Below, piece by piece: positions 1 through 36,737 of a stretch of DNA of 36,755 bases (the stretch's first letter is position 1; every line of letters begins with the position of its first letter). A program made the translations under genes and the position numbers. Source of the DNA: a virus. The notes beneath the pieces were generated by a model. That model was given only the letters and a program-made list of their open reading frames with translations. It had not been told where the DNA came from and searched no databases. Location of the stretch: positions 1 to 36,755 of the IMG/VR virus record IMGVR_UViG_3300031718_000028. One strand, given 5' to 3'.

Positions 1-778
1 CGAAAAGGATGTACCAGACATAGGACGGCACGGTCGTGAGATCGATCCCGCCCACGGTGGTCGCTGGTGCTGTGCAGAGACCGGTCGTCGGATCGGTCAC
101 GCATGGCGCGGCCGCGGTTGTGATCCCTGCCTGTTGCGCCGCGAGGATCTGAGAATCAAGACACACGCCGGTCGTCGGATCCACGTTCACGCAGGAGCTT
201 GCCGGCGGTACGATCGTCGAGCTCGCCGGCTGCGCGCCAGGCGGATACGCGCCCGCATTCGCTTCGCTGCACACGCGAGCTCCGGTCTGATCGATCGTGC
301 ACACCGTCGACGGCCCATAAGGTGTCGAGGTCGAGCTTTGTGTCTGCCCACGACGCCACCGCCGGCGATTCATTCCGTCTTGCACCTGGTCGACGCTCGT
401 CGGAGGAAGAACGGTCTGCGTTGCCGGCTGAGTCCCGTTTGTCAATTGCAACTGAAACGGTGTCGGAGAGATCGGCACCGAGACCGGATACTGCGGACCG
501 AAGGCTGCAGGTTGCGAGATCGGAGTCAGCCCTGTCGGCCGGTGAAACGCCGGCATCGTGTTTGCAGGGGTGTTTCCCCATTGCGCGACCTTCACCGGAA
601 GACCGAGATCGCGCACGGTTTTCATCGGAAGCCCGAGCCCGCGAAGACCGCGCAGTGCGCGTCGACCACGAGTCACCATCTGACCGCGGTAAGCACCGAG
701 CGTCGCTGGTGCTGTCGCCGGTGCCGGCTTTCCGTTTTTCGTCGGTGTAAGTGGGGGACCAGTGTAGAGATAACTCAC
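1..778 (-). CDS. Putative virion membrane protein, C-terminus cut by window edge
   Basis: At least 259 codons, running off the left edge. I chose the GTG at 778-776: it lies 5 bases after the upstream stop and is preceded by a GGAAACAGGTGA ribosome-binding stretch. The N-terminus carries LGAYRGQM and an Arg-rich patch, also present in the gene just upstream. The middle is Pro/Thr/Gln-rich with short repeats (VDPTTGVC, TDPTTGLC) and a YGP..VCTI..GARVC motif that recurs in the protein at 28208-28885. The last visible residues, TVPSYVWYILF, look like the start of the same membrane signal that ends the three upstream neighbours. Function unknown; a virion or envelope protein is inferred from context. 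Confidence 0.75.
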   Translation of the reverse strand, partial: MSYLYTGPPLTPTKNGKPAPATAPATLGAYRGQMVTRGRRALRGLRGLGLPMKTVRDLGLPVKVAQWGNTPANTMPAFHRPTGLTPISQPAAFGPQYPVSVPISPTPFQLQLTNGTQPATQTVLPPTSVDQVQDGMNRRRWRRGQTQSSTSTPYGPSTVCTIDQTGARVCSEANAGAYPPGAQPASSTIVPPASSCVNVDPTTGVCLDSQILAAQQAGITTAAAPCVTDPTTGLCTAPATTVGGIDLTTVPSYVWYILF

Positions 779-783
779 AATGT

Positions 784-1632
784 TCACCTGTTTCCTTGCG
801 AGAGATAGAGCACCAAAACGAGGCCGCCACCACCGACGAGCCAAACCCACGTTGGCAAGCCGAGCATGGTTCCGCTCGTGAGCGAGCTCAGTGCACCGCC
901 GATGCCACCAGCCGCCCCCGCTGGTGAGTAAGTCAGAGAGAAGCCGCTCGTGCCGGTGTAGCCGTAACCCGAGCTCCCGGTGGCCGGGATCGAGATCGTT
1001 CCACCGCTCGAGGCGAACAGCTGCTTGATCCGGCACACGGTGGGGATGAGCCACTGACAGAGCATGCAACACCCGACGGTGCACCCGCTGTCACACTTCT
1101 CGTTTCCGTAGCCGGCGCTATTCGCGCACGCGCCACCAGGTACCGGAGTGCAGGCTCGCATCGCGGATCCCGGTGTCGATGCGTACTGCTGAATCGTCTG
1201 CTGAAACCCCGCGACGATCTGATCGAGCTGAGAACTGGCGGTAGCGGTATCGAGCTGGCCGGCGTTGACCGACGCGACGATCGCCTGGATCTGCTGAATC
1301 GCCGCCGGCATGAGTTGATTGACCGCGGAGTTTTCCGTCTTCGCTTCCGCTGCCCGTTTTGCAGATGCACCGAAGAACAGCCCACCGATCGCACCGATCA
1401 GCGGACCGAGTACCGGTCCAACCACAGGAATGAACGTCGCCGCGGTGGCAGCTGCAGAGACCCCGGTCTGCGCTGCAACGTTCGCCCCGAGTGTGTGCTG
1501 TGGCCGCCGGCGATAGTTGCCGAGCGTGCAGGGTGCGCAGCCGCGCAGCGCGCGCTGTCGTTGTACTGGGAGATGCCTGGCCATCTGCCCGCGGTAAGCT
1601 CCGAGTCCGGGTTGTGCGACGACTAGATACAT
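784..1632 (-). CDS. Putative virion membrane protein with Gly-rich and Cys-rich segments
   Basis: 282 residues, ATG at 1632 with AGGTGA close upstream. Visible in order: LGAYRGQM and a basic N-terminus (about 10-45); a hydrophobic Gly/Pro/Val segment with PVVGPVLGPLIGAIGG (about 68-90); an Ala/Gln-rich helical stretch (about 105-150); a Cys cluster including CDSGCTVGCCMLC (about 175-195); a Gly/Ser/Tyr-rich linker; then GLPTWVW, a transmembrane segment and the tail SQGNR. The Gly-rich hydrophobic stretch resembles membrane-active or pore-forming segments in general form only. It lies in a tight minus-strand run (4 bases after the upstream gene). I do not recognise the family. Confidence 0.8.
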   Translation of the reverse strand: MYLVVAQPGLGAYRGQMARHLPVQRQRALRGCAPCTLGNYRRRPQHTLGANVAAQTGVSAAATAATFIPVVGPVLGPLIGAIGGLFFGASAKRAAEAKTENSAVNQLMPAAIQQIQAIVASVNAGQLDTATASSQLDQIVAGFQQTIQQYASTPGSAMRACTPVPGGACANSAGYGNEKCDSGCTVGCCMLCQWLIPTVCRIKQLFASSGGTISIPATGSSGYGYTGTSGFSLTYSPAGAAGGIGGALSSLTSGTMLGLPTWVWLVGGGGLVLVLYLSQGNR

Positions 1633-1636
1633 TCGT

Positions 1637-1969
1637 TCACCTGCGCATCGCGAGCACGAGAATCATCACCAGGCCGAGACCACCGAGGGCCCACACGTAC
1701 ACAGGCACCGTCGACGGTAAGCCGAGAGTGCTGGCGGTGGTCGGTGGTGCAACCATCACCGTCGGCGCTTTCGGTGCTCCGACGTTTTTTAGAAGATTGA
1801 CACCGGCGGCCGCGGCACTCGTCGCGGCCGAGCTCGCAACCGAAGTCGCGAAGTTCGACCAGTCGAATCCACTGCCGTCGTCTTGCCCGAGCCCGTTTCC
1901 AAGAGCAAGGGCGGGCGGGCCCAGAGAGCCACGGCGCTGTCGTCGGCGAACTGAGACGGCATAAGTCAC
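1637..1969 (-). CDS. Small membrane-anchored protein with C-terminal PxYVW signal
   Basis: 110 residues. GTG at 1969-1967 sits 3 bases after the stop of the transglutaminase-like gene, with a GGGGGTGATG stretch upstream. The N-terminus is basic (RRRQRRG), the middle is Ala/Ser-rich, and the end is TVPVYVW followed by a hydrophobic helix and AMRR. This is the smallest member of the four-gene set sharing the C-terminal signal. It may be a minor virion membrane protein; that is inference from architecture and neighbours. Confidence 0.75.
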   Translation of the reverse strand: MTYAVSVRRRQRRGSLGPPALALGNGLGQDDGSGFDWSNFATSVASSAATSAAAAGVNLLKNVGAPKAPTVMVAPPTTASTLGLPSTVPVYVWALGGLGLVMILVLAMRR

Positions 1970-1972
1970 CCA

Positions 1973-2800
1973 TCACCCCCGGGACACAGCCCACACAACA
2001 CCGACCAGCCCGACGAGCCAGATCCATGTCGGCACACCGAACGCGGCCGGTGCCGCGGTTGCGAACCCGGGCTGTCCAAAACTCCCCGGGTAAGTGCCCG
2101 GCTGCACAACGTTGCCACCATAGGCGAGCTGAGCCGCGCCCGCCTGAGCAAACGGTGCCGCCAGGTCGTAGAGCATCTGTTCCGTGGGACTGAGGCCTGT
2201 AGGTGCCGCTGCAGGCAAGGGCACGAGCGCCGGCTGATCACCGAGCGTGCGCCGCGGATTCGGATAAGTGCGTTGTCTGTAAATCATGGGGGGTTCCCAT
2301 CCTGCAAAACTTTGCCCGACGGTCGAATCGATCGCGATCCACTGGCCGGGATTGCGCTTGTCTTTCACGATCACGTAGACGTGGGAAAACTGTGGATCAT
2401 CCGGCCTGGTCGCGACCGTCTTGAACTGAGTCCGATAGCCGAGACTCTCGAGCATCGCCGCGATCAGCGAAGAGTGATCGTCACAGTCGCCGGCCGCAAG
2501 CTGCAACGTCACGACTGGCGACTGCAAGGTCTCAGCATGCTCGCCGCGGAATTCGATGTTTCGCTTCACCCACGTGAGCACGTGGTCGATCTCGTCGACG
2601 CTTTTGATCGCGCCGCGCACCGCTTCGATCGCTGCGATGCGCACCTGTGGGTGTCCGACGCCTTCAGGACCGAAGGCGAGTCGCTGCATGTGCTTGATGG
2701 TTTTAAAAATCGCCTGGTCGCCGTGCCCGATGGTGAAGCGCCGCATCTGGTAGGGATTCCCGCAAGTGGTGCACCCGAGTTGAAGCGAAGGCGAGGCCAT
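1973..2800 (-). CDS. Transglutaminase-like cysteine enzyme with C-terminal membrane anchor
   Basis: 275 residues. Residues about 65-165 match the transglutaminase-like (papain-fold) core: Cys106 in GDCDDHSSL, His140 in FSHVYV and Asp158 in AIDST, all three catalytic positions present at normal spacing. Two N-terminal Cys (CTTC, 10-13) could bind metal. A Pro/Ala-rich linker leads to FGVPTWIW, a transmembrane segment and the tail SRG. Family members are thiol proteases, amidases or crosslinkers; which applies here is open. As first gene of the minus-strand run of tagged membrane proteins it could process or crosslink virion proteins (inference). No strong Shine-Dalgarno precedes the ATG at 2800, so the start is moderately certain. 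Confidence 0.85.
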   Translation of the reverse strand: MASPSLQLGCTTCGNPYQMRRFTIGHGDQAIFKTIKHMQRLAFGPEGVGHPQVRIAAIEAVRGAIKSVDEIDHVLTWVKRNIEFRGEHAETLQSPVVTLQLAAGDCDDHSSLIAAMLESLGYRTQFKTVATRPDDPQFSHVYVIVKDKRNPGQWIAIDSTVGQSFAGWEPPMIYRQRTYPNPRRTLGDQPALVPLPAAAPTGLSPTEQMLYDLAAPFAQAGAAQLAYGGNVVQPGTYPGSFGQPGFATAAPAAFGVPTWIWLVGLVGVVWAVSRG

Positions 2801-3877: not shown

Positions 3878-3950
3878 CGGACTCGAGAGGTGTGTGCCGC
3901 ATCCGGGTGCTTCCGGATCGCCTCCACCTCTGCGAGTCCGTTTCTTTTTT
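3878..3950 (+). terminator. Large stem-loop with T-run before gene 3962: attenuator or terminator
   Basis: The outer arms 3878-3892 (CGGACTCGAGAGGTG) and 3925-3940 (CACCTCTGCGAGTCCG) pair over 15 bp with one bulge. Inside, ATCCGG (3901-3906) pairs perfectly with CCGGAT (3913-3918) around a six-base loop. TTTCTTTTTT (3941-3950) follows at once, then GGAGG and the start codon of the next gene. It has the form of an intrinsic terminator but directly abuts a ribosome-binding site, so it could attenuate or time expression of the downstream gene rather than end an operon. Confidence 0.75.
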
Positions 3951-3961
3951 GGAGGAAAAAA

Positions 3962-4525
3962 ATGCCGATAGTGGCGAACGTGCTGGAACTGATCGCCGAT
4001 GTGATCTGGTCACGTGTACCAGTCGAACCTAATCACCCCATCCGAGAAAACCACAAGTACGCAGCGAAACGCACCTCACTGTTCGTCGTGCCGATCGGTC
4101 TGTGGGGAGTTGATCGAATCGATACGAACATGACGAACGCGGGACAATTGCCGGTGCCTCAATCGTTCAACGTTCGGGCAGCTCGAACCCTGTTCCTCTC
4201 GATGGGAATCCCTCTGTCATTCAAACATCCGCTGTGGTGGAACTCGCTGATCGAGCTCCGTGTGGGGATGAAGACTTACATCGAATGCCCCACCTTCACG
4301 CTCATGGATCCGATTGCCCTGCTGACTCAGGATCGACATCCGAAAGTCGAAGAGTTACTAGCTCACCGAAGCGAAGGAATACTGCCCCACGTGATCAGTC
4401 CGGAAATCGAGATCGAGTGCGGGATGGGATTCAACGCTTTACTGACGCACCAGGTCGAAGATCTGCCGCCAGCATGCGAATTTTTGTTCGTGCTCGAGGG
4501 AGAAAAGAAACGGGGGATCATGTGA
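3962..4525 (+). CDS. Beta-rich protein related to the capsid candidate at 31828-32541
   Basis: 187 residues, ATG at 3962 with a strong GGAGG nine bases upstream. The middle has a pattern also seen in the right-hand capsid candidate: MTNAGQL..PQ, then VRA, and later ELRVGMKTYIECP, against MTKAGQL..PQ, VIRAIS and TLTVGKKPMLECF there. The alternation of hydrophobic strands and the length would suit a single jelly roll. It is placed away from the virion cluster, behind a long stem-loop, so expression may be separately controlled. It could be a minor capsid or vertex protein; this is inference from similarity by eye. Confidence 0.75.
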   Translation: MPIVANVLELIADVIWSRVPVEPNHPIRENHKYAAKRTSLFVVPIGLWGVDRIDTNMTNAGQLPVPQSFNVRAARTLFLSMGIPLSFKHPLWWNSLIELRVGMKTYIECPTFTLMDPIALLTQDRHPKVEELLAHRSEGILPHVISPEIEIECGMGFNALLTHQVEDLPPACEFLFVLEGEKKRGIM

Positions 4526-6319: not shown

Positions 6320-7420
6320 ATGCCCGCAAAGCGGCCCCTCTCCCCCGTCTCCGTCTCTCACACCGTTGGACACCGGCACTGTCCGGCTTGCGAGTTAGAA
6401 CGAACGCGCATGATCACTCCCGGTGCGCTCGCTTCGCTGCTGTTCGGTGAGGCGGCCGCAACATGGCTCGACGCGCACCGCCGATCGATCGGTGTCGCCT
6501 CGATTGCCGAATACGAGAAGAACATCAAGCGGCTGGGAAGCTTTTTCTCTGAGCTCACGCTGAGTGAGATCCACATCGGGCACCTCGAGACCTATCAGAA
6601 AATGCGCCTCGAGGGTGACGGGTTCTCAAAGAAGGCCGGCCCGTCGCGGATCAATCACGAACTCAACACACTCTCACAGATTCTCGTGCGCGCCGCGCTG
6701 TGGGCCCCGCTCGCGCCCTATTACAAACCGCTGAAGATGCCGCGACCGAAAGCCGGTCGCGCGCTGTCGTTTGAGGAAGAGACCACACTTTTCTCGGTGG
6801 CGATGTCGCGGCCGCGGTGGAAGGTCGCCTATCTCTGCTCGCTCGTCACCGCAAACACGACCGCGGGACCTGGTGAGATCCGCATGCTGCGCTTGCGTGA
6901 CATCGATCTCGCACCAGGTGCGTCGACTCCCTTCGGAACGATCACCGTCACACTCGGAGCGAAAAACGACACACGGGTGCGCACCATCCCTCTGAACGAA
7001 ACCGCGGGTGATGCGATGAAGGAACTGGTCCGCCGCGCGCGCGAGCTCGGTGCCGTCGCACCCGACCACTTCCTGTTGCCTCATCGCGCCGCGATCGGCC
7101 GAGATACCGCGGATCCCACGAAGCCGGCGACGTCGTGGAAAAAGGCGTGGGACAAACTCAGGAAGGCCGCCGGCATGCCCACACTGCGCATGTACGATCT
7201 GCGTCACCACGTGATCACGAAACTACTCGAGGATGAGCGCGTTTCTGAACGCACCGTGATCGAGCTCGCCGGCCACGTCTCGAAGAAAATGCTCGACACC
7301 TACTCGCATATCAGCATGAAGTCAAAGCTCGAGGGTGTGATGGCACTCGAAACACAAAAGCCGCCGAAGAAGCCGGCGGCCGTCGTCGGGTTCGTGTCTC
7401 AGGCTAAACGTGTGCAGTAA
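6320..7420 (+). CDS. Tyrosine-type site-specific recombinase (phage-like integrase)
   Basis: 366 residues, ATG at 6320 with a GAAGAGAAG stretch upstream. A SAM-like DNA-binding domain covers about 45-130 and the catalytic domain about 145-340. Visible active-site residues: Lys215 (LGAKND), Arg295 (YDLRHH), His319 (LAGHVS) and the nucleophile Tyr328 (DTYSH). At the usual Arg-I site, the sequence TTAGPGEIRML puts Gly183 where Arg is expected, with Arg188 nearby. Tyr292 replaces the box-II His. It should catalyse integration and excision; its 3' end overlaps a convergent membrane gene by 17 bases. A Cys pair near the start (CPAC) is unusual. Confidence 0.92.
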   Translation: MPAKRPLSPVSVSHTVGHRHCPACELERTRMITPGALASLLFGEAAATWLDAHRRSIGVASIAEYEKNIKRLGSFFSELTLSEIHIGHLETYQKMRLEGDGFSKKAGPSRINHELNTLSQILVRAALWAPLAPYYKPLKMPRPKAGRALSFEEETTLFSVAMSRPRWKVAYLCSLVTANTTAGPGEIRMLRLRDIDLAPGASTPFGTITVTLGAKNDTRVRTIPLNETAGDAMKELVRRARELGAVAPDHFLLPHRAAIGRDTADPTKPATSWKKAWDKLRKAAGMPTLRMYDLRHHVITKLLEDERVSERTVIELAGHVSKKMLDTYSHISMKSKLEGVMALETQKPPKKPAAVVGFVSQAKRVQ

Positions 7421-18582: not shown

Positions 18583-18738
18583 ATGAGGGACATTGTTCTT
18601 CAGGCCTTCGCGTTGGGGATCGTGCTCGGTGCCGCGCTCGCGGATGGACTCGGCCGACACGATCGGTTCGAATACTTCGGCGCCGGCGCCGTGATCGCTC
18701 TCGTCGTCGTTCTCCGGAGTACATCGTGGCACGACTGA
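18583..18738 (+). CDS. 51-residue membrane protein ahead of the recombinase
   Basis: ATG at 18583, stop at 18736-18738, overlapping the serine recombinase start by 13 bases. Two hydrophobic stretches (VLQAFALGIVLGAALA; GAGAVIALVVVL) flank a polar charged turn (DGLGRHDRFEYF). No Shine-Dalgarno, but TAACCT lies six bases upstream. Tight overlap supports expression. Function unknown. Confidence 0.6.
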   Translation: MRDIVLQAFALGIVLGAALADGLGRHDRFEYFGAGAVIALVVVLRSTSWHD

Positions 18739-19331
18739 GAGCTGGCCTCTACGCTCGTGTCTCGACCGACGAGCAAGACGAAGGGATGCAGCTCCGCGAG
18801 CTCCGCGAGTTCTGCCATCGCCGCGGCTGGTCGGCCGAGATCTTCGCGGATCCCGGTCATTCCGGCGCGAAAGTCAGCCGGCCCGAGCTCGATCGCATGA
18901 TGAAGTTGTGCCGCGGCCGAAAGCTCGACGTCGTGGTCGTTTATCGCTTCGATCGCTTCGCCAGGTCGACGAAGCAACTGGTCGACGCGCTCGCGGAGTT
19001 TGAGAAACTCGGGATCCAGTTCGTCTCTCTGCACGAACAGGTCGACACGTCGACCGCGAACGGCAAGCTTCTCTTTCACATCTTCGCCGCGATCGCGGAG
19101 TTCGAGCGCGCACTCACCGTCGAGCGGGTGCGGTCCGGCCTGGCGCATGCTCGAGCGAAAGGAAAGATCTGTCACCGGCCGCGCAAGGTTGTGGACGTCG
19201 AAAAGATCCGCGCGCTACGACGCAATGGCGTCGCCTGGCGCGACATCGTGAAGCTGGTGGGGGTTTCCCTTGCCACCGCGAAGCGCGCGCTCCTGATGGC
19301 TCAAAAGCCCCTCTCCGAACGCCTTCAGTAA
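18726..19331 (+). CDS. Serine recombinase, resolvase/invertase family
   Basis: 201 residues, GTG at 18726 with GGAG upstream. The catalytic domain covers about 5-140: Ser13 in YARVSTDEQ and the conserved Arg74 and Arg77 in YRFDRFARST are present. The long helix E follows, then a Hin-type HTH (about 155-190: KIRALRRNGVAWRDIVKLVGVS). Length matches small resolvases and invertases, not large integrases. It may resolve multimers or invert a segment; no pair of crossover sites was spotted. Second recombinase beside the tyrosine integrase at 6320. Confidence 0.92.
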   Translation: MARLRAGLYARVSTDEQDEGMQLRELREFCHRRGWSAEIFADPGHSGAKVSRPELDRMMKLCRGRKLDVVVVYRFDRFARSTKQLVDALAEFEKLGIQFVSLHEQVDTSTANGKLLFHIFAAIAEFERALTVERVRSGLAHARAKGKICHRPRKVVDVEKIRALRRNGVAWRDIVKLVGVSLATAKRALLMAQKPLSERLQ

Positions 19332-21038: not shown

Positions 21039-21623
21039 CTAGTCGTTCAGGTACCAGGTGAGTGCGAGAACACCGAGAAGTGACCCGGCTGCAATAATCG
21101 GGACGCTTGAGTTCCCCCCGGGGATCACACTCGAGAGCAGATCGCTCGGAGAGAAAGACGCTTCGACAAAATCGGGAGTGGTAGGAGCTGTGCCGGCTTG
21201 CATCGCCGCGGCCGCATTCGTTCCGAGCACTCGGCCGATGATGCCGGCCGCGTAGTTATAGACCGACACCGGCCAGGACGTTCCCGCCGCGGCCGCTTTG
21301 TCGACGTTGCCCGGGCCCCAGTTGTAAGCCGCGAGCGCTTGTTCCCACGTGCCGTACTTCGAATAGAGCTGCTTCAGGTAAGTGATCCCGCCGCTGATGT
21401 TCTGATTCACGTCGGTGGGATCCACACCGAGTTGTGCCGCGGTCGCGGGCTCGAGCTGAAACACTCCGATCGCGCCGGCGCCACTGGTGACGACGTTCCC
21501 ATTCGGGGCCCACTGACACACACCGCTCTCGGTCTGAGCGACAGAGAGTGCGAGTGTCGGATCGACACCCTGGCGCTGTGCCTCTTGTGTGATCAGGTCG
21601 CGGAGATCGATTTTGCACGTCAT
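21039..21623 (-). CDS. Membrane-anchored lytic transglycosylase (SLT fold)
   Basis: 194 residues. SLT core at about 5-115: catalytic Glu32 in AQTESG, then GAIGVFQLEPATA, QNISGGITYLKQLY and ALAAYNWGPGNV. This enzyme cleaves the peptidoglycan glycan strand. A Ser/Pro-rich linker leads to a single C-terminal helix (VPIIAAGSLLGVLALTWYL), so the enzyme is held in a membrane. Membrane-containing phages carry comparable virion transglycosylases for genome entry. Start ATG at 21623 has no clear Shine-Dalgarno. Confidence 0.88.
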   Translation of the reverse strand: MTCKIDLRDLITQEAQRQGVDPTLALSVAQTESGVCQWAPNGNVVTSGAGAIGVFQLEPATAAQLGVDPTDVNQNISGGITYLKQLYSKYGTWEQALAAYNWGPGNVDKAAAAGTSWPVSVYNYAAGIIGRVLGTNAAAAMQAGTAPTTPDFVEASFSPSDLLSSVIPGGNSSVPIIAAGSLLGVLALTWYLND

Positions 21624-21629
21624 GGGGAT

Positions 21630-24600
21630 TTAGTGCAGGTTGCCGATCAGGCCGAATTGTGCGGACTGTCCGGATTCGGTCCAACTGCAAGTGTTGTCAC
21701 TGGTGACTGAACCGCCACCAGTGTTCCAAGTCGGTTGCGCTCCACCAGAAGTGCAGCCGGCGAGAACGGTTTGCCTGAAAGCATGATTGTCATCTGGCAC
21801 CGCGCACACGAAGTCACCGAAAAGAAAGGCAGTGTTGAGCGTCCAAGGGATGCAACCGCGGCCGCCCGTGGTGACGATCCATCCTGGCGACGCGCTCGCA
21901 ACCGGAGTGACTTTTAGAACTCTCTGGCCGAGCGACCAGATCCCGCCGATCGGCAAGGTGTCTGAGTAATGCGTGTCATCGCTGTAAGGAAAATTCGCTG
22001 GGATGGTTTCGAAGGCGGTGAAAGGGCAGTCGTTGTTTCCCGCACCGAGTAGGCCGGCTGCGGTTCCGTTCGCACCACAGTTAAAACGCGCGGTCAGATT
22101 CGATCGATAATTCGTGACCTGAAAAGCCGACTTTGGCACACCGCCGAGCAGAGTGATGTCGAGGTTACTCTGCCCGATTCCGGGCGGGGTTTTGTAATTA
22201 GTATTCGAGACGACAGCCGTCGGTCGTCGCCCGTAGAGTGTCCAGGTGACACCGCCATCCGTCACCGTGCACCCGACACCGACCGTGCACCAGTTCGGTT
22301 CTGTCGTTCCACTTGTCCCCGTCGTTCCCTTGTTCATATAGATAAAAGTGTTGTCGAGTGAAGGAACGACCACGCCGGGTTGAGTCGGAGAGCTCACGAG
22401 ACCCGCATAGCTGACTGAGGGTTGCCACTTCTGACCACTGAAAATCTTCGCACCGGAGAATGCTCCGATCGGTGCGACACAGGCGCCGGCGGTGCAGTCG
22501 TTGCTCGTCGTGCACGCAAAGGTCGGAGTGCCGCCGCAGAACCCGAAATTGAAACTGATGTTGTTCCCATCCCAAATCGAAGACTGCAGATAAGGCGATT
22601 GGTTTCCGTTGATCGAAAGTGCATAGGTCACCGGGAACTGCGCGCCGCTGTAAGTGAACCGGTTGTTCCTGATCGTGCACGTTCCGTGGATCGATGGGGG
22701 TTGCGGCCCGTAGACCACATTGTTCGTTTCGCGACCGGTCCCGCAGCTGATGCCGGCCGTGTCATCCATGATCTCGTTATTCTCGACCAACACGTCCCCA
22801 AGCATGCCGAGCACGTTCTCGATGTCGACGCCACTGTTCGCGATCGCGCGACTGTTGCGCACACTCCAGTTCCAGATCCCGTAGGTGCCCGAGCTGAGAT
22901 TCACAAACAGATGCGGGGACGGTGACGCCGAACTCTGAATGTCCGGACCGTGACCATCACACGTGTTGCCCTGAAAATCGTCGTCGTGGCCAGCTCCCTC
23001 CATGCATTGCCCATAGTCTTCGGCAAAGTTGTCGTGCGCCTGGCTGTAATTGCCGTTCATGTTCAGCGCTGAGTCAGAGGTCGAGGTGGCAGGACCACCG
23101 AGGCCGCACTGGTAGAAAGAATTGTCGTGCACATCCCAGTGCTCGCTCTGTCCGCTTTGATACAAGCACTCTGCCGAAAAGTTCACAAAGCGCGAGTGGT
23201 GAACTTTCACACCGGAGGTCGCGCCCAGATCTGAGACGGCCTTTAGTGCAACCGTCGGGTATTTGATCTGCTGAAACGTGATCCCCGAGATCTCGATGTT
23301 TCTAAGAGGCTGAGTCAGACTGCCAATCGGGTTATAGACTCCAGTTGCCGACGCACCTAAGTTGATCAGTCCCGGGTTGCCGGTCAGCGCATTGTTGCTC
23401 GTCGCGATGTCCCAGTTCTCGAAGACTGAGACGCCGATCCCATCGCCGCGAAACGTGATGTTGTTATAGGCGAGTGTGCAGTTCAGCAAACCGATTCCGG
23501 TGAAGTTGCCGATCTGTGAGCATGGCAGGTTGACTCCGTGCATCACATAGAGGCCTTTTGGCGCGAGGATCGCGCATCCGCCGAGTCCCGCGCACGCATC
23601 GACCGCCGCCTGCATCGTGGTGGTGTTGTCGGTCCCCCAGACCACGTGCTCACTGTGCCCGTCCGCGGTTCCACCGCCGGTGCTGGTTTGCGGCATCAGT
23701 GCCCAGTTCCCGACTGTGAACGTGTTCGCCGTCACCGAGCTGATCGGGAAAACTCCGCTGAAAGATGCGTCGGTGATGTTGGTCATCTGCACGTTGACCA
23801 TCTGTCCGGCGTGGAAGCCGTGCGCAGTCGCGTTGTACACCGTGCTCAAGGCTGATGCTGACAGAGTTCGAGTTGCACTCGTCACTGTGGCGATCGTGTG
23901 AGTGGTCGAGTTGCCGGCTGTGCATGACGTCGTGACCTGCGTCGAACTGGTGAACGCTGTGATCGATCCCGAGCATGGCTGAATGAAACCGTTCGTGGTC
24001 GGTCCGCTTCCATAGACTGCGATTTTTTTAGCGACATCGCTAAGAAGGAAGTGACCGCTCTCACAGGTGAGCACCGCACTTCCCGATGTCATGTAACAGT
24101 CAGTCGCGACCTGGCCATCGGACAGGACACCGAAAGCACCGACAGCAAGCACCGGGATGCTTCCGAAAACTCCGTTGTTATTGATCTGCGCTGAGCCATT
24201 CGGCCCCGCCGGCGTGCCACCACCACCGCCGCCGCATCCTGTGCTGACATCGCAAACGAAAACGCCATTCTTGCGAAGGATCAGATGCGCACTGCCGGCG
24301 CCCTGCACTTCGTTCGTGAGTGTGAGATTCGCGGTGTTCGGATCGAATGTGGTGACGGTGTACCCGCTCGTCGAATTCGACTGATCATTGAGCGGAAGAC
24401 TGGTGACGTTTGTCGCGACCGCGCAAGCACACGAACCCGACGGCATCGCCGGTGTGGAAGTCTTCAAGACATCGTAAGTGACTCCCGGATCGGATACCGG
24501 AGTGAAGTTAACGATCACAAAGTTCGAAACGCTGAGAGTGTTCGGTGCGTTCGTGATCGAAAACGGTCCCGCCGGCGTCGAGTTCCCGAGCGGGTAGCGC

Positions 24601-24824
24601 GACACCACCCAATAGAACAGCATCGCCTGACCAGGATTGCCCGAGACCCCGAGATCGGCGTTCGGCACCTGTTGCGGCATCGGTTGCGCCGGCGTGATCC
24701 AGATTCTGTTAGAGACGAGCTGCGTCGGCTGTGCCGGCGGTGGGCCCTGTGCGAAGCCGATCGCGGACAGGAAGAACAGGAAGGATCCTAGAATCACACT
24801 CGCCGAAAGCTTATACTTGCGCAC
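21630..24824 (-). CDS. Sec-exported spike protein with pectate-lyase-like beta-helix
   Basis: 1064 residues; GTG at 24824 with GAGGA five bases upstream. It begins with a signal peptide (ILGSFLFFLSAIGFAQ). Residues about 25-200 (TQLVSNRIWITPAQP, RYPLGNSTPAGPF, LTNEVQGAGSAHLI) are nearly the same as in the spike at 25494-27395. A Gly-rich hinge (CGGGGGG) follows. Then comes a tail-spike-type N-cap (TTTMQAAVDACAGLGGCAIL) and a right-handed beta-helix (about 500-760) with repeated NNxI / HDNxF turns. The C-terminal region is Cys- and Gly-rich. Probably receptor binding or glycan depolymerisation; the signal peptide is odd for a tailed-phage spike. Confidence 0.88.
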   Translation of the reverse strand: MRKYKLSASVILGSFLFFLSAIGFAQGPPPAQPTQLVSNRIWITPAQPMPQQVPNADLGVSGNPGQAMLFYWVVSRYPLGNSTPAGPFSITNAPNTLSVSNFVIVNFTPVSDPGVTYDVLKTSTPAMPSGSCACAVATNVTSLPLNDQSNSTSGYTVTTFDPNTANLTLTNEVQGAGSAHLILRKNGVFVCDVSTGCGGGGGGTPAGPNGSAQINNNGVFGSIPVLAVGAFGVLSDGQVATDCYMTSGSAVLTCESGHFLLSDVAKKIAVYGSGPTTNGFIQPCSGSITAFTSSTQVTTSCTAGNSTTHTIATVTSATRTLSASALSTVYNATAHGFHAGQMVNVQMTNITDASFSGVFPISSVTANTFTVGNWALMPQTSTGGGTADGHSEHVVWGTDNTTTMQAAVDACAGLGGCAILAPKGLYVMHGVNLPCSQIGNFTGIGLLNCTLAYNNITFRGDGIGVSVFENWDIATSNNALTGNPGLINLGASATGVYNPIGSLTQPLRNIEISGITFQQIKYPTVALKAVSDLGATSGVKVHHSRFVNFSAECLYQSGQSEHWDVHDNSFYQCGLGGPATSTSDSALNMNGNYSQAHDNFAEDYGQCMEGAGHDDDFQGNTCDGHGPDIQSSASPSPHLFVNLSSGTYGIWNWSVRNSRAIANSGVDIENVLGMLGDVLVENNEIMDDTAGISCGTGRETNNVVYGPQPPSIHGTCTIRNNRFTYSGAQFPVTYALSINGNQSPYLQSSIWDGNNISFNFGFCGGTPTFACTTSNDCTAGACVAPIGAFSGAKIFSGQKWQPSVSYAGLVSSPTQPGVVVPSLDNTFIYMNKGTTGTSGTTEPNWCTVGVGCTVTDGGVTWTLYGRRPTAVVSNTNYKTPPGIGQSNLDITLLGGVPKSAFQVTNYRSNLTARFNCGANGTAAGLLGAGNNDCPFTAFETIPANFPYSDDTHYSDTLPIGGIWSLGQRVLKVTPVASASPGWIVTTGGRGCIPWTLNTAFLFGDFVCAVPDDNHAFRQTVLAGCTSGGAQPTWNTGGGSVTSDNTCSWTESGQSAQFGLIGNLH
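24225..24760 (-). repeat. Spike N-terminal repeat, copy 1
   Basis: Codes for residues about 20-200 of the first spike. The DNA resembles 26841-27350 closely over several hundred bases in the same orientation, so homologous recombination between the two copies could delete or exchange what lies between. Confidence 0.75.
24812..24817 (+). promoter_or_regulatory. Minus-10 hexamer for the methyltransferase gene
   Basis: TATACT nine bases before the ATG at 24827, inside the first codons of the divergent spike gene. No ribosome-binding site between. Confidence 0.5.
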
Positions 24825-24826
24825 CT

Positions 24827-25513
24827 ATGTCCTCGTTAGCTGGGAGTCCCACCGAAAACGGTCAGCAGGGTGAACTTAGTTTCTGGCAGCATTACCCGGA
24901 AGCGTGGATCGATAACCTGGCGCACTATCGACCGGTGTTTCCCTTTGAGTCGATCGACTACAGTCGGGAAATTCTCGATGTCGGATCCGGCCCGAAAACC
25001 GTGTTCGAGGAGATCGCGCCGGCGCATGCCCGTATCATCCCCGCCGACACCCTGGCGGATGAGTTCAATCGCCTGATGCCTGACAAACGATTTCCCGTGG
25101 TCGCAACGATCCCCGCGCGAAAGTTCCGACTGATCACTCTCTTCAACATGATCGATCACATGGAACGGCCCGAGGAACTGCTCGCGCAGCTCGTCGAGCA
25201 TCTTGCAGAGGATGGGGAGCTGTGGCTCTACGTGCACCTGGATCGCCCGTACGATCCCGTCGAACACCCTCAGTGCTATCGGTTTTGGCAGGTTGCGCCG
25301 CTGATGCAAAAGTTCTTCACGATCAAAAGCTGCGGGATCGAAAACCGCATCCCGTCGATCAACGGTTTCTGGTGTGTGTGCACGCAAAAAGGAAAGAGTC
25401 GGGAAGTTCGATCGCTTCGCTGGTCTCGAACACTTGGAGGCATCTACGCTTCGAACGTCATCCGCAGATATGCCCAGGGCCTTCATCGACGGATCAGAAG
25501 CACTTCCAGATAG
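24827..25513 (+). CDS. Class I SAM-dependent methyltransferase-like protein
   Basis: 228 residues, ATG at 24827, only 2 bases from the start of the divergent spike gene. Motif I EILDVGSGP (49-57) and an acidic loop, PARKFRLITLFNMIDHMERP (motif IV region) and EDGELWLYVHLDRP give a Rossmann-fold methyltransferase. No DNA-methylase catalytic motif (NPPY, DPPY, PC) is visible, so a sugar, lipid or small-molecule target is more likely than DNA. It is the only plus-strand gene inside the minus-strand cluster and overlaps the second spike's end by 20 bases. Confidence 0.8.
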   Translation: MSSLAGSPTENGQQGELSFWQHYPEAWIDNLAHYRPVFPFESIDYSREILDVGSGPKTVFEEIAPAHARIIPADTLADEFNRLMPDKRFPVVATIPARKFRLITLFNMIDHMERPEELLAQLVEHLAEDGELWLYVHLDRPYDPVEHPQCYRFWQVAPLMQKFFTIKSCGIENRIPSINGFWCVCTQKGKSREVRSLRWSRTLGGIYASNVIRRYAQGLHRRIRSTSR

Positions 25514-27395
25514 TCCCGTTTGATACAGCAAGAGCAGTGTTGGTGCTGCTTCCCGCGCACGTCTGTCCTTCGGCCGCGATCGCGGTCGAGTCACTCACGG
25601 TGATAAAGGCCCCGATGTTCGAAGCTGCTGCAGGTAAGGCCACGACCGTTGTCGTCGCGGGGATGACCACGGGTTTTCCGGATCCAGTTACAGAGATCTT
25701 GCCGCTCGCGAACGTGAAGCAGTTGTTTCCCGTTCCATCGTCGCAGACTGGCTGCACCATGTAGACGTGAGTGCTGTCACTCTCTACGGTCTGCGAACCG
25801 TTCACCGTCAGCTTCCAAAAATTTCCAGCCGCGGCATTCATGTAGACCTGCCCGCCGCTTAATCCGACTCCGACGGTTGGTGCTCCTGCAAAAGAATAAG
25901 CCGGGGTCGTCTGGGAGGCACTCGTCGGACTCAACATCTGCGCGGTGCCGCAATTCGCTGATCCGTACTTCCACTGCCATTGCGTGCCGGCGGTACCGAG
26001 TCCCATCGCGATCGAGCCCGTCGCCGCGGCCGTGCATGTGATGTTCGAGACAATGTTTGTGAACGCGACACCGGCAGAGTTCCACGTCGCAGACTGGTTT
26101 AGTGCTGGGGTGCTGACCGTGATCGTGCCTTGCGCTTCGGTGATCGTGTTGGCCTGAAGATTCGCGAGACTGCTGTTGCTTCCGGCTTTCGCGTGGAATG
26201 CGAACCCACTCGCACCCTGATCGGAATAGAATCCGTCGGCTGTAACCTGATCGTCGCTGTAAAAACCTGCACTCTCCCCCGAGCCTATAATCCCGATGCC
26301 TCGTGCGTAGTAGCCCGCTGTGTGAACGGGAGTCACTGCGGTGTTGTTCACCATCGGCCAAGTCAGATATTCCGCGAGGGTTTGGGGAATCCCGGTCCCA
26401 CTGTTCAAAATCACCACAGAAAAGACGCCACCGACATAGCCATTGTTGAAGGTAGCGGTGTCGAGCAGAGCTATAGACTGGAATCCGTTCACCATCGGAC
26501 CGCCCCACCCGACCGCACCGTTCGCGGTTTGCAAACCTTCGGTCACTGCCGAGATTCCACTCGCCCCGAGTGAAGCATTCCCGACGTTGCTGTAATAGGC
26601 TTCGACTCCAAAGATCGCGTTGCTCGTGGCGTTGTTCACGTTGTTTCCCGTCACGAGTTGCACTGGCCCGAAAAATCCTTGAATGTCTGCTGGGAGACCA
26701 GACTCGGGAGGCCCGAGAGTCATCAGCGTGCCGTTGAATACAAAATTCGGTGAGCCTTTAATGCTGGTCGGGCTAGCAAAAGTGGCGACCTGGTTTGCCA
26801 GCGGAGATCCCGAAGTCGTGACTGTCCCTGAACTGGGAACACTGAGGTCCGCGACAAAAACGCCGTTGATTCTCAAAATCAGATGCGCACTGCCGGCGCC
26901 CTGTACTTCGTTGGTGAGTGTGAGATTCACCGTGTTCGGATCGAACGTGGTGACCGTGTAAGCGCCGGTCGAGTTCGACTGATCGTTGACCGGTGACGTC
27001 ACGTTCGTCGCAACTGCACACGCACACGCGCCCGTCGGCATCGCCGGCGTCGACGTCTTCAGCACGTCGTAAGTCACACCGGCATCACTCACCGGGGTGA
27101 TGTTGACGATCACGAAGTTTGAAACTGAGAGAACATTCGGTGCATTCGTGATCGTGAACGGGCCCGCCGGCGTCGAGTTTCCGAGCGGATACCGTGACAC
27201 CACCCAATAGAAGTTGGTTGCCGGTCCCGGGTTCCCCGAGAGCACCAGGTCGACATTCGACACCTGTTGCGGAGTCGGCTGTCCTGGTGTGATCCAGATT
27301 CTGTTAGAGACGAGCTGTGTCGGTGGTGAGGGTGGCGGTCCCTGTGCGAACGAGAGCGCGGTGAGAAGCGAAGCGACGAAGAGAGAACGTGTCAT
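25494..27395 (-). CDS. Sec-exported spike or fibre protein, second copy
   Basis: 633 residues, ATG at 27395 six bases after the upstream stop. Signal peptide (LFVASLLTALSFAQ), then about 180 residues shared with the spike at 21630. The remainder differs: strand-rich repeats with YYARGIGIIGSGESAGFYSDD, the fibre-like SLANLQANTITEAQGTI and a C-terminal cap with STAIAAEGQTCAG and NGTIWKCF. No beta-helix is seen. It looks like a fibre with the same particle-attachment head but a different receptor-binding part. Confidence 0.85.
   Translation of the reverse strand: MTRSLFVASLLTALSFAQGPPPSPPTQLVSNRIWITPGQPTPQQVSNVDLVLSGNPGPATNFYWVVSRYPLGNSTPAGPFTITNAPNVLSVSNFVIVNITPVSDAGVTYDVLKTSTPAMPTGACACAVATNVTSPVNDQSNSTGAYTVTTFDPNTVNLTLTNEVQGAGSAHLILRINGVFVADLSVPSSGTVTTSGSPLANQVATFASPTSIKGSPNFVFNGTLMTLGPPESGLPADIQGFFGPVQLVTGNNVNNATSNAIFGVEAYYSNVGNASLGASGISAVTEGLQTANGAVGWGGPMVNGFQSIALLDTATFNNGYVGGVFSVVILNSGTGIPQTLAEYLTWPMVNNTAVTPVHTAGYYARGIGIIGSGESAGFYSDDQVTADGFYSDQGASGFAFHAKAGSNSSLANLQANTITEAQGTITVSTPALNQSATWNSAGVAFTNIVSNITCTAAATGSIAMGLGTAGTQWQWKYGSANCGTAQMLSPTSASQTTPAYSFAGAPTVGVGLSGGQVYMNAAAGNFWKLTVNGSQTVESDSTHVYMVQPVCDDGTGNNCFTFASGKISVTGSGKPVVIPATTTVVALPAAASNIGAFITVSDSTAIAAEGQTCAGSSTNTALAVSNGTIWKCF
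26841..27350 (-). repeat. Spike N-terminal repeat, copy 2
   Basis: Copy of 24225-24760 in the same orientation. The reading frame is kept in both copies, which suggests selection on the shared head domain. Confidence 0.75.
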
Positions 27396-31289: not shown

Positions 31290-31757
31290 CTATTGCGCCG
31301 GTCCGTCGTTCAGCTCGACACCGATGAAGTTGAGCCGCACCGTGTTCTGTGCCCCGCTCAGATCCGTGAAGTCGGCCAGGATCGATCCCCGCCGTTCAAA
31401 CGTGAACGGAGTCAGAAGCGGAAACGGATTCTGTGCGGTGCCGACGATGTTCGACGATTGCACCTGTTGATTCGAGAACGGACGCTTGTTCCGCGAGTCC
31501 TTGATCAGCACGGTGTAGAGCGCTGAGGTCTGCACACCCGCCAGCAACATCCACCGGAAAGAACGATCGAGGATCTGCACTGAGAAATTCGAGATGGTTC
31601 CGTTCATTGGAATCACGACGGGCCCCATCTCATAGGTGAAGAACAAGCCGGGATCAAACGCCGCGCCGCTGCCTTCACACATCGGGCACCGTTGTGTGCC
31701 CGCGGGCCCGTTCACCATCCCGCCGCCCGCGCACGCTTTGCACGGTTGATCAGCCAT
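31290..31757 (-). CDS. Beta structural protein with DnaJ-type zinc knuckles
   Basis: 155 residues, ATG at 31757 with GAGAGGG upstream; an earlier ATG lacks a good site. The first 30 residues hold CKACAGGG and CPMCEGSG, two CxxCxGxG repeats of DnaJ type, probably one zinc. The rest is a strand series (GPVVIPMNGTISNFSVQI, RSFRWMLLAG, YTVLIKDSRN, FTFERRGSILADF, VRLNFIGVEL) that resembles 29361-29921. A capsid-type protein with a zinc-stabilised head is proposed from this. Confidence 0.78.
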   Translation of the reverse strand: MADQPCKACAGGGMVNGPAGTQRCPMCEGSGAAFDPGLFFTYEMGPVVIPMNGTISNFSVQILDRSFRWMLLAGVQTSALYTVLIKDSRNKRPFSNQQVQSSNIVGTAQNPFPLLTPFTFERRGSILADFTDLSGAQNTVRLNFIGVELNDGPAQ

Positions 31758-31827: not shown

Positions 31828-32541
31828 TTACTGCACGCCGCGATAGAGCTCGCCGTCGAGAATCACGTACACCGTGGTTCCGACGCCGTTCGGCCGCGCC
31901 GCTGTCGCCGCGAAATTGAAAGCGGTTTCCGGGTTCAGCGTGACGCTGAAACCTTCACCACCTTCTATGACTATCGGTTGATTTAACGTAAAAACCGATC
32001 TTGGATCGGGAACACCGTTCGACGTGGAAATAAACTGCACGTCGCCGGCGGCCGCCGTTCCGAGTTCGGTTGTGCTCGTCGCGATCGCACCGCGACCGGC
32101 TGTCAGGTTCCCGGCGAAACACTCGAGCATCGGCTTTTTGCCGACGGTGAGAGTGAAAGAAACGTTCGTCAGGAAGTTGACCAGGTCGATCAGTGCGGTG
32201 TTGTTCGCGAAGAAGAGCGAGATCGCACGGATCACGAGCTTCTGAGGTTGCTCGAGCTGACCCGCCTTCGTCATGTAGGTCTGCGCAAGAGTTTTTCCGC
32301 TCTGACCGATCGGTGTCTGAAAGAGCACCGTTTTGGTCATCGCGGCCGCTTGCGCAAAACTCGCGGAGTCGTACACGGGTTGGTTGATGACTTCCATCAG
32401 GTTCGCCACCAGGGGATTGCGCCCCTTCACTTTCGGCATACGACCGAGGTCGAATGACGAGATCAGCGAAGGATCGAAACCCTCACCGCGTACCGCACGA
32501 TTGAAGCGATCGAAACGACTCGCATCGAATCTCTGCAACAT
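31828..32541 (-). CDS. Candidate major capsid protein, jelly-roll-like
   Basis: 237 residues from the ATG at 32541 (GAGG eight bases upstream); a TTG 25 codons earlier is possible. Strand-rich from about residue 75: QKLVIRAISLFF, VSFTLTVGKKPMLE, DVQFISTS, SVFTLNQPIVIEGGEGFSVTL and TTVYVILDGELY. It shares the GQL..PQ and VGxK...EC pattern with the gene at 3962. The size and strand content suit a single-jelly-roll capsid protein. It lies centrally in the virion cluster. No tailed-phage capsid motif is visible. Identification is by inference. Confidence 0.75.
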   Translation of the reverse strand: MLQRFDASRFDRFNRAVRGEGFDPSLISSFDLGRMPKVKGRNPLVANLMEVINQPVYDSASFAQAAAMTKTVLFQTPIGQSGKTLAQTYMTKAGQLEQPQKLVIRAISLFFANNTALIDLVNFLTNVSFTLTVGKKPMLECFAGNLTAGRGAIATSTTELGTAAAGDVQFISTSNGVPDPRSVFTLNQPIVIEGGEGFSVTLNPETAFNFAATAARPNGVGTTVYVILDGELYRGVQ

Positions 32542-32627: not shown

Positions 32628-33407
32628 CTAGAACCGGGACGCGAAACGAGTCAGTCCCGCAGGGTTCGCGGGCTGAACGTTAACGGCCGGTGCTGTGCTG
32701 CCTTGAGGTGCCAGAGGCGCATTCGCGGGTGACCCTACCGGGCCCCACGACGCCGTTGCGGGAATCGAAAGATAATTCCCGTTCTGACCGCTCACCGTCG
32801 GCAATGGGAAACCGGAGTTGATGTAAGCTCCGAGCCCATCCCCTGAGAAGTCGATGTCACCGAGATAACCGCTCATGGCGGCCGGCGACGTCTGCGAAAC
32901 CTTCTCCGACCACAAACGCATCAGCACTGCGGAAATTCCGCCAGCTGCTACGCCTGCCGCGATGTCACGGCCAGCGAATTTCGAGGCCGCCCATGCCAGC
33001 GCGATCGCTGCCGCGATGTTGGCTCCGTACCCCATTGCACCCGTGTTCTTGTCGCCAAGAACCGCTTGGGTGAGATACCGCGAGCCGATCGCACCGCCGG
33101 CCGCCCCGAGACCGAGCGACAACAGCTCAGATCCGGAGAAACCGCCGATCGGATTGCGACGACGACGACGACCGTAATTGCGGTGACGTCTCGAGCGCGT
33201 GCTCATGAACGGATTGCGTGCCCGTCTGCGATTGCGCGCGCGTGACCGATGATGCCGGTTGCGACGCTTCCTTTTCGGGTTCGTCATAACGAGTAACTCA
33301 CCCCCTCCCATGTTTCGTTTTCTCGGCCGTGCTCGACGGCCGGAACTTTTGCGCGTACTGCGCTTTTTGTGTGGATTGACCAGGCGAACAGTTCTCATTG
33401 AAGGCAT
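32628..33407 (-). CDS. Arg/Lys-rich NP-repeat protein with hydrophobic Gly-rich domain
   Basis: 259 residues from ATG at 33407; ATG at 33287 (Arg-rich from its third residue) is an alternative start. Residues 1-95 repeat basic blocks separated by Asn-Pro: NPHKKRSTRK, NPKRKRRNRHHRS, NPFMSTRSRRHRNYGRRRRR, NPIGG. Then follows a hydrophobic Gly/Ala-rich part (LGLGAAGGAIGSRY; AAAIALAWAASKF; GVAAGGISAVL) with membrane-like helices and a Pro/Ala tail. The basic head should bind nucleic acid and the rest may sit in a membrane or core. No family recognised. Confidence 0.8.
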   Translation of the reverse strand: MPSMRTVRLVNPHKKRSTRKSSGRRARPRKRNMGGGELLVMTNPKRKRRNRHHRSRARNRRRARNPFMSTRSRRHRNYGRRRRRNPIGGFSGSELLSLGLGAAGGAIGSRYLTQAVLGDKNTGAMGYGANIAAAIALAWAASKFAGRDIAAGVAAGGISAVLMRLWSEKVSQTSPAAMSGYLGDIDFSGDGLGAYINSGFPLPTVSGQNGNYLSIPATASWGPVGSPANAPLAPQGSTAPAVNVQPANPAGLTRFASRF

Positions 33408-34916: not shown

Positions 34917-34930
34917 CGTGTGCGCTCCTG

Positions 34931-35206
34931 TCATCGCGGCCGCCACGCATCGCAGCAACCGCGCCGGTCAATCATCGCCATTCTGCGAGGAACTCCATAC
35001 TCGGAATCGAACGCCTCGATTTTTTTGCGCTCTTTCGTCGCCACCAGGCTCGGATGGATGCACGGTTGCGACATGCTTTCCGGTGAAAGCTTTCGAATGT
35101 GCTGGCACGTGTTGCAAGCTCGGCCGGTGAGGGTGCCCCCGAGCTCCGGTCCGACATAGTGAGCCGGTCCGACTCCGACGGGTGCGAAATTCGGTTCGCT
35201 AGCCAC
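34931..35206 (-). CDS. Small Cys-rich protein
   Basis: 91 residues, GTG at 35206, overlapping the upstream gene by 8 bases. CNTCQHIRK, SQPCIHPS and GCCDAW provide five Cys and two His; a zinc site is likely. The rest is basic. No family recognised. The stop lies 14 bases before the DnaJ-type gene. Confidence 0.7.
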   Translation of the reverse strand: MASEPNFAPVGVGPAHYVGPELGGTLTGRACNTCQHIRKLSPESMSQPCIHPSLVATKERKKIEAFDSEYGVPRRMAMIDRRGCCDAWRPR

Positions 35207-35463: not shown

Positions 35464-36534
35464 TTAGTTAACGATGCCTTCCGGCTTCACCACATAGGCA
35501 CCGCCCACCAAGTGTATCCGCTTCTTCACGCGATCATAGACAGCGCGGGGTGACTCTCCCGACTCTTCTCCTAAGTCGTGGTAGTAGGTCACCGGCTGGT
35601 GATTGTCGAACGCTTTGCGCGTGAAGTATTCGATCTGGTACGCGAAACCGAGATCGATCATGTCTTTGTCGGTCGAGATCGGAAGACTCTCGAGTGAGCC
35701 GTTCAAGCTCTGATTTCCACCCACGAGATAGAGCTGTCGACCACCAGGCTCGGCCGCGAGATCCGGCGCTTCCGGTCCGCCCCACGTGATTTTTTTGCAC
35801 CAGGGTTTTTCTGCATCCTTGTCCCCGATCGTGAGCGAGACGAGTTTCCCGAGCTGGCCGAGCTCCGCATGCGAGCCGTAGTCCGCGATCGGCAGACCTG
35901 TGTCTGACACTCTTCCCGCCTTTCTGCCGTGGAATTTTTCGTAGAGCTCGCCGGCGTCCTGATAGTTGCGCTTGCGCTTCGTTCGTCTCTTCGCCTTCGC
36001 TCGCGTGTTTTTCTTTTTTCCGTTCTTCCGAAGGCCCGCAAGCGTTTCCATCTTGAGTTGCTGAGCGCGCTGCAGAACCGCAGACCGTTCGAACGGAGTG
36101 AGATCCTCGAATTTCTTCCCCGGCGCGATCTCACGCATCGCCTTGTGCACGAACTTCGAATCATCATTCCGCTTGCGGCGCGGTCGACCTTTCGGATTTT
36201 TCCCGAGTCCGCGTCGCATGCGCGCCAGGAGAGCGACGCCCTGGTCCTGCGTCATGTTGTAAGCCGCGACACCCTTCGTTCTCGTGTCGAAGACGAACCA
36301 CTTCCGCTTTGGATCGTGGCGAAGCACGTAGCGCGATCCCTTGAGGTTCTGTTGCCGCGGTGGGATCTTTCCGGCACGTCGTAACTCGGAAAGCAGAATC
36401 GCCTTCGCCATTCGTTTCGATCGCACCTTGCGCCCCGAGCTCGAGCGCAACGTGCGCCGGCGGAACCGCGGCATCACCGTGCCGGGTTTGTAGGGTGGAT
36501 TCGCTTTTTTGCGTTTCGAGGTTCTTCGTTTCAT
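35464..36534 (-). CDS. Basic NP-containing protein with C-terminal conserved domain
   Basis: 356 residues from ATG at 36534, in an ATGA overlap with the upstream stop; longer frames upstream are shadows. Residues 1-60 are very basic (KRRTSKRKKANPPYKPG, RFRRRTLRSSSGRKVRSKR); a second Lys-rich block (KKKNTRAKAKRRTKRKR) lies near 185. The last 150 residues, with ELGQLGKL, PGGRQLYLVGGNQSLN, VTYYHDLGEESG, IHLVGGAYVVK and EGIVN, resemble a conserved domain of uncharacterised phage proteins. Probably a DNA-contacting virion protein. Confidence 0.8.
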   Translation of the reverse strand: MKRRTSKRKKANPPYKPGTVMPRFRRRTLRSSSGRKVRSKRMAKAILLSELRRAGKIPPRQQNLKGSRYVLRHDPKRKWFVFDTRTKGVAAYNMTQDQGVALLARMRRGLGKNPKGRPRRKRNDDSKFVHKAMREIAPGKKFEDLTPFERSAVLQRAQQLKMETLAGLRKNGKKKNTRAKAKRRTKRKRNYQDAGELYEKFHGRKAGRVSDTGLPIADYGSHAELGQLGKLVSLTIGDKDAEKPWCKKITWGGPEAPDLAAEPGGRQLYLVGGNQSLNGSLESLPISTDKDMIDLGFAYQIEYFTRKAFDNHQPVTYYHDLGEESGESPRAVYDRVKKRIHLVGGAYVVKPEGIVN

Positions 36535-36737
36535 GGTGTCCGTCCATTGGTGGCGTACACGGGAACGATCTTCGACGTCTGCCCCATCCGGATGCGCTGT
36601 TGGAATCCGAGCGCTTTGTGCAGACGCGGGAACGGCCGGCTCTGCTTCTGTCGGCCGTTCGCCGTCCACACCACCCGATAGCCGGTGATCGATGCGACCG
36701 GGCTCGCACCGTCACTCCCGAGCGTCACATAAGTCAT
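36531..36737 (-). CDS. Small hypothetical protein
   Basis: 68 residues, ATG at 36737, overlapping the next gene by ATGA. Strand-rich start (MTYVTLG, ITGYRVVWTANGR) and a basic helix (RLHKALGFQQRIRMG). No Cys, no TM. No family recognised; no Shine-Dalgarno visible. Confidence 0.65.
   Translation of the reverse strand: MTYVTLGSDGASPVASITGYRVVWTANGRQKQSRPFPRLHKALGFQQRIRMGQTSKIVPVYATNGRTP

Follow-up and report, generated by a model that had tools for sequence, protein, structure and literature searches.

Four adjacent genes at the left end of the window analysed here, an IMG/VR virus record of 36,755 bases, probably encode C-tail-anchored internal-membrane proteins of a tailless icosahedral phage with a single-jelly-roll capsid, a distant relative of Salisaeta icosahedral phage 1 (SSIP-1). 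What is conserved among these proteins and their homologues is the anchor, composed of a C-terminal transmembrane (TM) helix and a basic tip. The strict motif that precedes the helix in the window, P.[WY][VI]W, is not conserved. The coordinates of the four genes, their tails and the other features discussed are listed in Table 1.

Table 1. Positions of the tail-anchored genes and other features in the window.
Feature	Position	Strand	Description
Gene 1	1973..2800	(-)	275 aa, C-tail anchored; transglutaminase-like (papain-fold); C-terminus FGVPTWIWLVGLVGVVWAVSRG / VPTWIWLVGLVGVVWAVSRG
Gene 1 tail	1976..2035	(-)	VPTWIW-LVGLVGVVWAVSRG
Gene 2	1637..1969	(-)	110 aa, C-tail anchored, without known domain; C-terminus STVPVYVWALGGLGLVMILVLAMRR / VPVYVWALGGLGLVMILVLAMRR
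Gene 2 tail	1640..1708	(-)	VPVYVW-ALGGLGLVMILVLAMRR
Gene 3	784..1632	(-)	282 aa, C-tail anchored; conserved late-module family with Cys-rich CC..C segment; C-terminus LGLPTWVWLVGGGGLVLVLYLSQGNR / LPTWVWLVGGGGLVLVLYLSQGNR
Gene 3 tail	787..858	(-)	LPTWVW-LVGGGGLVLVLYLSQGNR
Gene 4	2..787	(-)	Cut by the window edge, runs off at base 2
Gene 4 tail, beginning only	2..31	(-)	VPSYVWYILF, remainder outside the window
SLT lytic transglycosylase	21039..21623	(-)	PF01464, E 6.6e-21; C-terminal TM helix
Second small capsid-type protein candidate	31290..31757	(-)	Conserved beside the capsid candidate; alignments
Major capsid protein candidate	31828..32541	(-)	Single jelly roll in predicted model
Very basic protein with hydrophobic middle	32628..33407	(-)	Directly upstream of the capsid candidate
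Late-module protein	35464..36669	(-)	BLAST to relatives G001, L008 and L009; after the tail-anchored genes in relatives

Genes 1–4 are packed head-to-tail on the minus strand. The original prediction of VPTWIW, VPVYVW and LPTWVW near the ends of three adjacent proteins, with a hydrophobic helix and then a basic tip behind each motif, was verified in the sequence; the tips are only modestly basic (SRG, MRR, and GNR). For the fourth gene the prediction held in part: VPSYVW is present at the edge (TTVPSYVWYILF), and the helix and basic tip lie outside the window. As reasoned from the sequence, this gene starts with a GTG codon at position 787 that overlaps the stop codon of gene 3. Recent DNA duplication was ruled out as the origin of the tails, as the last 90 bases of the genes match at only 8–12 bases.

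The genes matching the two ends of the window adjoin each other in a colinear relative, IMGVR_UViG_3300009700_000004 (37,418 bases), which has the late module and many other genes in common with the window. The genome is therefore probably circular, with the cut of the window lying within gene 4 and some sequence possibly missing there. The genome also encodes a tyrosine integrase (PF00589, positions 6320-7420) and a serine resolvase (PF00239, positions 18726-19331), which suggests a temperate or plasmid-like life.

Conservation of the operon was assessed in all relatives for which the transglutaminase homologue and the genes downstream of it were inspected together. In 15 of the 15 viruses (window included), the transglutaminase-like gene was followed by three to five more genes encoding a TM helix and a basic tip, so that the clustering with a transglutaminase-like gene that had been proposed as a check was found for tails of this TM and basic-tip kind. 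Each operon thus encodes four to six mostly unrelated proteins. When the last 40 residues were removed, proteins in slots 1, 2, and 3 formed mainly separate families, and those in slots 4 and 5 partly cross-matched; tail-less profiles placed gene 1 of the window in slot 1 (E 6e-32) and gene 3 in slot 3 (E 1.1e-32). In the relatives in which the module was traced further, the tail genes are followed by a homologue of the late-module gene at 35464..36669, other late genes and the capsid gene. In a circular genome, this late-module gene of the window would come after the tail genes by way of the joined ends.

The tail proteins possess a single TM helix at the extreme C-terminus (gene 4 being cut at the edge). 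Lysine or arginine was found within the last eight residues of 70 of 71 complete tails (mean 2.1 per tail), and aspartate or glutamate in one. Glycine accounts for 14.7% of the helix in the viral tails versus 7.7% in E. coli helices. N-terminal signal peptides, sought with a simple hydropathy measure of the first 40–45 residues rather than SignalP, were not detected in the tail proteins save for one borderline case.

A second short motif, [GAS][LM]G[DEQ] (GLGD or GLGQD, often after Arg), recurs in these late-module proteins. It was found 26 times in slots 1–5 versus 5.2 expected (0 of 200 shuffles) and 0 times in the early genes of the window. Instances include RRTLGDQ in the product of 1973-2800 and GLGQDD in that of 1637-1969, as well as late-module proteins of relatives L006 and L008-L036. 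In most gene 1 homologues, SSIP-1 gp34 among them (RGMGEP), the motif lies just past the catalytic domain. Possible roles are those of a processing site or docking motif.

The strict motif P.[WY][VI]W is present in four of four tails in the window but at only one of 333 TM-helix starts in E. coli K-12 (four stretches, 200 kb; one of 308 when helices were called in a slightly different way). Its recurrence in the window is thus far beyond chance, and the suspicion that it might be no commoner than at the starts of unrelated TM helices did not materialise in this comparison. Among the other viruses, it was detected in one of six tails in relative G001, one of five in relative L039, and none in the remaining 12. 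The original prediction had named absence of the motif from homologues as evidence against itself, and this is what we found: the motif is absent from 14 of 14 gene 1 homologues tested and from seven of eight aligned gene 3 homologues, while the TM helix and basic tip persist. Gene 1 homologues have tails such as NISTTALLCLLAIGGG or SALPWLLIGG instead. Of the gene 3 homologues, that of the nearest relative reads LPIWIW, and those of distant ones finish in SLLPL-type sequences.

A looser element, [ILVM]Px[WYF] directly before the helix, was detected in 29 of 72 tails and in 14 of 15 viruses, compared to 11 of 333 helix starts in E. coli (Fisher p 4e-16, a value that is overstated since the viral tails are mutually related and the pattern was picked after the data had been seen). 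In more distant viruses, this element is found mainly in slots 2 and 4, whereas in the window it is carried by all four proteins. Proline is favoured in the first helix turn, and tryptophan and tyrosine in the lipid headgroup layer; these preferences explain the element without a reader protein. It is better understood as belonging to the anchor than as forming a code.

The combination of motif, TM helix and basic tip had been likened to C-terminal sorting signals, whereby a sortase- or exosortase-like enzyme would recognise the tail, cut it and attach the protein elsewhere. The three-part form is indeed that of such signals, the looser element is enriched over E. coli helix starts, and it is carried by otherwise unrelated proteins. 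However, the tail proteins lack signal peptides, the anchor outlasts the strict motif, which is lost in every gene 1 homologue tested and in every gene 3 homologue but one, and the SLT protein of the same virus possesses a C-terminal TM helix without the motif. NCBIfam, a library that names CTERM and LPXTG signals, yielded no match at E 0.05, although short motifs can escape its models. Finally, no sortase-type gene was recognised among the selected ORFs of the window that were scanned. We consider a sorting signal of this kind highly improbable, and the LPXTG/PEP-CTERM part of the original prediction is not supported.

The proline-aromatic element could also be a docking motif through which the anchors bind a common membrane partner (a viral assembly protein or each other) that gathers them into one patch, such as a genome-delivery vertex. 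Occurrence of the element in separate protein families of one virus (four of four in the window, two to three in most relatives), mostly in slots 2 and 4, would be in line with docking, and the glycine-rich helices fit helix–helix packing. On the other hand, the element shifts between slots and is lost in homologues, no binding partner came to light, and much of its occurrence is explained by general helix-start and interface preferences; we regard docking as unlikely. Quite unlikely, in our estimate, is that [ILVM]P-x-[WYF], the glycine-rich helix and the basic tip together form a shared address on otherwise unrelated virion proteins, by which a viral or host membrane factor picks anchors for a viral membrane patch. 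If true, this would be the first virion-membrane sorting code of its kind in a phage.

Next, we turn to the evidence for a virion with an internal membrane. A profile built from four sequences of the major capsid protein candidate led to approximately 20 uncultured viruses. The AlphaFold2 model based on 23 sequences was a beta-barrel (pLDDT 72.4). A first model, based on four sequences, was too poor (pLDDT 45), and the Foldseek search was redone with the 23-sequence model; P23-77 VP16, Sulfolobus polyhedral virus 1 (SPV1) and SH1 were already among the matches of the poorer one. In the VIA-align ranking, SPV1 (Z 8.4) came ahead of satellite panicum mosaic virus and P23-77 VP17 (6.9), SH1 (6.8), HCIV-1 (6.4) and HHIV-2 (6.2), where Z scores of 6–8 are moderate and near the common jelly-roll level, with some unrelated jelly rolls scoring alike. 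Single-jelly-roll viruses of the SPV1/P23-77/SH1 group occupied five of the 11 best rows. In its predicted model, the capsid candidate folds like the capsid proteins of internal-membrane viruses with vertical single jelly rolls.

By sequence, the capsid candidate showed no similarity to PDB entries, and when profiles of the capsid candidates were compared with the virion proteins of SSIP-1, none matched significantly. Searches of 50,697 phage records and 72,556 plasmids with the capsid proteins were negative, as was a search of 84,980 genomes with the capsid pair. The top match in BFVD, I1ZBH9, has 211 aa, the length of SSIP-1 gp46, and may be this protein. The very basic protein encoded next to the capsid candidate is 79% identical to that of the nearest relative over the C-terminal 150 aa.

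The product of an ORF at 3890-4525 on the plus strand resembles the G001 capsid candidate (32% over 128 aa, E 4e-12), which points to another, diverged copy of the jelly-roll protein in this virus, far from the late operon. CxxCxGxG zinc-ribbon repeats, like those of the DnaJ central domain or Anti-TRAP (weak Pfam matches), are present in the products of 31290-31757 and 34011-34958; in the former, the repeat precedes the capsid-type segment and is missing in distant homologues. The long proteins encoded at 21630-24824 and 25494-27395 have a similar N-terminal part of approximately 190 aa; in G001, the two counterpart proteins likewise resemble each other there. They probably combine a common attachment domain with exchangeable C-terminal parts, in a spike-like manner.

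Gene 1 matches the transglutaminase-like family PF01841 (E 2.7e-9; 37.7 bits versus a curated cut-off of 23), and the triad Cys106-His140-Asp158 is invariant across all 13 aligned homologues. Apparently catalytic, the domain might act on cell-wall or virion proteins by cutting or crosslinking them. Among 50,697 phage records, the only isolate matched by gene 1 was SSIP-1, via gp34, which is annotated as a structural protein; the transglutaminase of a more distant relative also matched only gp34. Single-protein searches of viral and genome collections with gene 1 yielded no match. SSIP-1 also gave a match to a serine resolvase, to which we attach no weight because this domain is widespread. In the literature, we found nothing joining a transglutaminase with these viruses, most subscription journals being outside the search.

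The SLT protein provides an internal contrast to the tail proteins: it lacks the P-x-W motif, and its end (LND) is not basic. Its homologues have an acidic or neutral end in all four cases seen. A packaging ATPase with a convincing Walker A motif was not found among the ORFs of the window or of G001, with the reservation that the window ends may miss sequence. A HerA-type ATPase (PF01935) was detected in relative L009 and, by similarity, in L034 and L035.

The place of the genes in the operon, the fold of the capsid candidate and the annotation in SSIP-1 lead us to infer that the tail proteins are located in the virion, their structural status being transferred from a single SSIP-1 homologue at approximately 30% identity. 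The tail proteins might instead be membrane proteins of the host cell that serve lysis, superinfection exclusion or membrane remodelling outside the virion, and the SLT domain could likewise serve lysis. Nevertheless, the tail genes have a fixed place in the capsid operon of the relatives, and both gp34 and gp53 of SSIP-1, the latter a protein with a C-terminal TM helix, are annotated as structural; a role outside the virion is very unlikely in our view. Of the virion-membrane targeting tag that was originally proposed, the virion-membrane half is thus supported by the late-module position, the internal-membrane type of the capsid fold and the structural annotation of the gene 1 homologue, whereas the sorting-signal half is not.

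For the C-tail anchors in a virion membrane that we favour, we picture the topology, the way of insertion and the tasks of the soluble domains as follows. The tail proteins would be made without a signal peptide, and their C-terminal helix would enter the host inner membrane after translation. A capsid protein assembling on this membrane would bring them into the virion, whose internal lipid membrane is suggested by the tails and the capsid fold. The proline would begin the helix, tryptophan or tyrosine would lie in the headgroup layer, and the glycines would permit tight helix packing. The lysine or arginine tip would be on the far side of the membrane, probably toward the packaged DNA. Since a basic tip on the far side goes against the positive-inside rule for an N-in anchor, the topology could be reversed. 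The soluble parts, including the transglutaminase-like domain, would occupy the space that separates membrane from capsid, or else a vertex, with possible roles in assembly or cell-wall crossing.

Tail anchors and internal-membrane virion proteins are already known. What is new is a transglutaminase-led anchor operon in an uncultured group of single-jelly-roll viruses, together with a recurrent helix-start element. At least 15 uncultured viruses share the conserved membrane-protein module that is recognisable by these tails; they are apparently single-jelly-roll internal-membrane phages, a kind with very few bacterial isolates (P23-77, IN93 and SSIP-1). This module bears on how such viruses select their membrane proteins and pierce the cell wall. 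With four to six mostly unrelated proteins per genome sharing one anchor style, the choice of membrane proteins is testable by tail swaps.

Among known systems, LPXTG and PEP-CTERM signals have a short motif, a TM helix and a basic tail in common with the tails described here. They differ in the motif itself, and the viral tails come without a signal peptide, motif conservation or an NCBIfam match. The tails are most like those of ElaB, a tail-anchored protein known from E. coli, and YqjD, which are anchored by a glycine-rich TM segment and, behind it, a positive patch with a di-arginine end (PMC5525287). Like the viral proteins, they lack a signal peptide and have their glycine-rich helix at the C-terminus, and ElaB possesses Pro-Trp ahead of the helix (C-terminus KPWQGIGVGAAVGLVLGLLLARR), but the N-terminal parts are unrelated and Pfam gave no family match. 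PRD1 P7 and PM2 P7 are muralytic, membrane-associated virion proteins (PMC5380687). They resemble the SLT protein as membrane-associated cell-wall enzymes of internal-membrane virions, although the capsid lineage of PRD1 and PM2 is double jelly roll and P7 has no shown homology to the transglutaminase-like protein.

By structure comparison, the Sphaerolipovirus-type viruses P23-77, SH1, HCIV-1 and HHIV-2, together with SPV1, have the same single-jelly-roll capsid fold, and an internal membrane is present in P23-77, SH1 and HCIV-1 (PMC4958249). The papers retrieved contained no report of a transglutaminase operon in Sphaerolipovirus-type viruses or SPV1. SSIP-1 is a tailless phage that has been grouped with the vertical single-beta-barrel membrane viruses (PMC4958249; PMC6356626). 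It differs from the virus of the window in genome size (44 kb), in capsid proteins that cannot be aligned by sequence, and in the absence of a P-x-W tail from gp34, which shows approximately 30% identity over half of the gene 1 protein; the sole other match is the common serine resolvase. What SSIP-1 has in common with the window is a transglutaminase-like structural protein, gp34, with a C-terminal TM helix and a lysine end.
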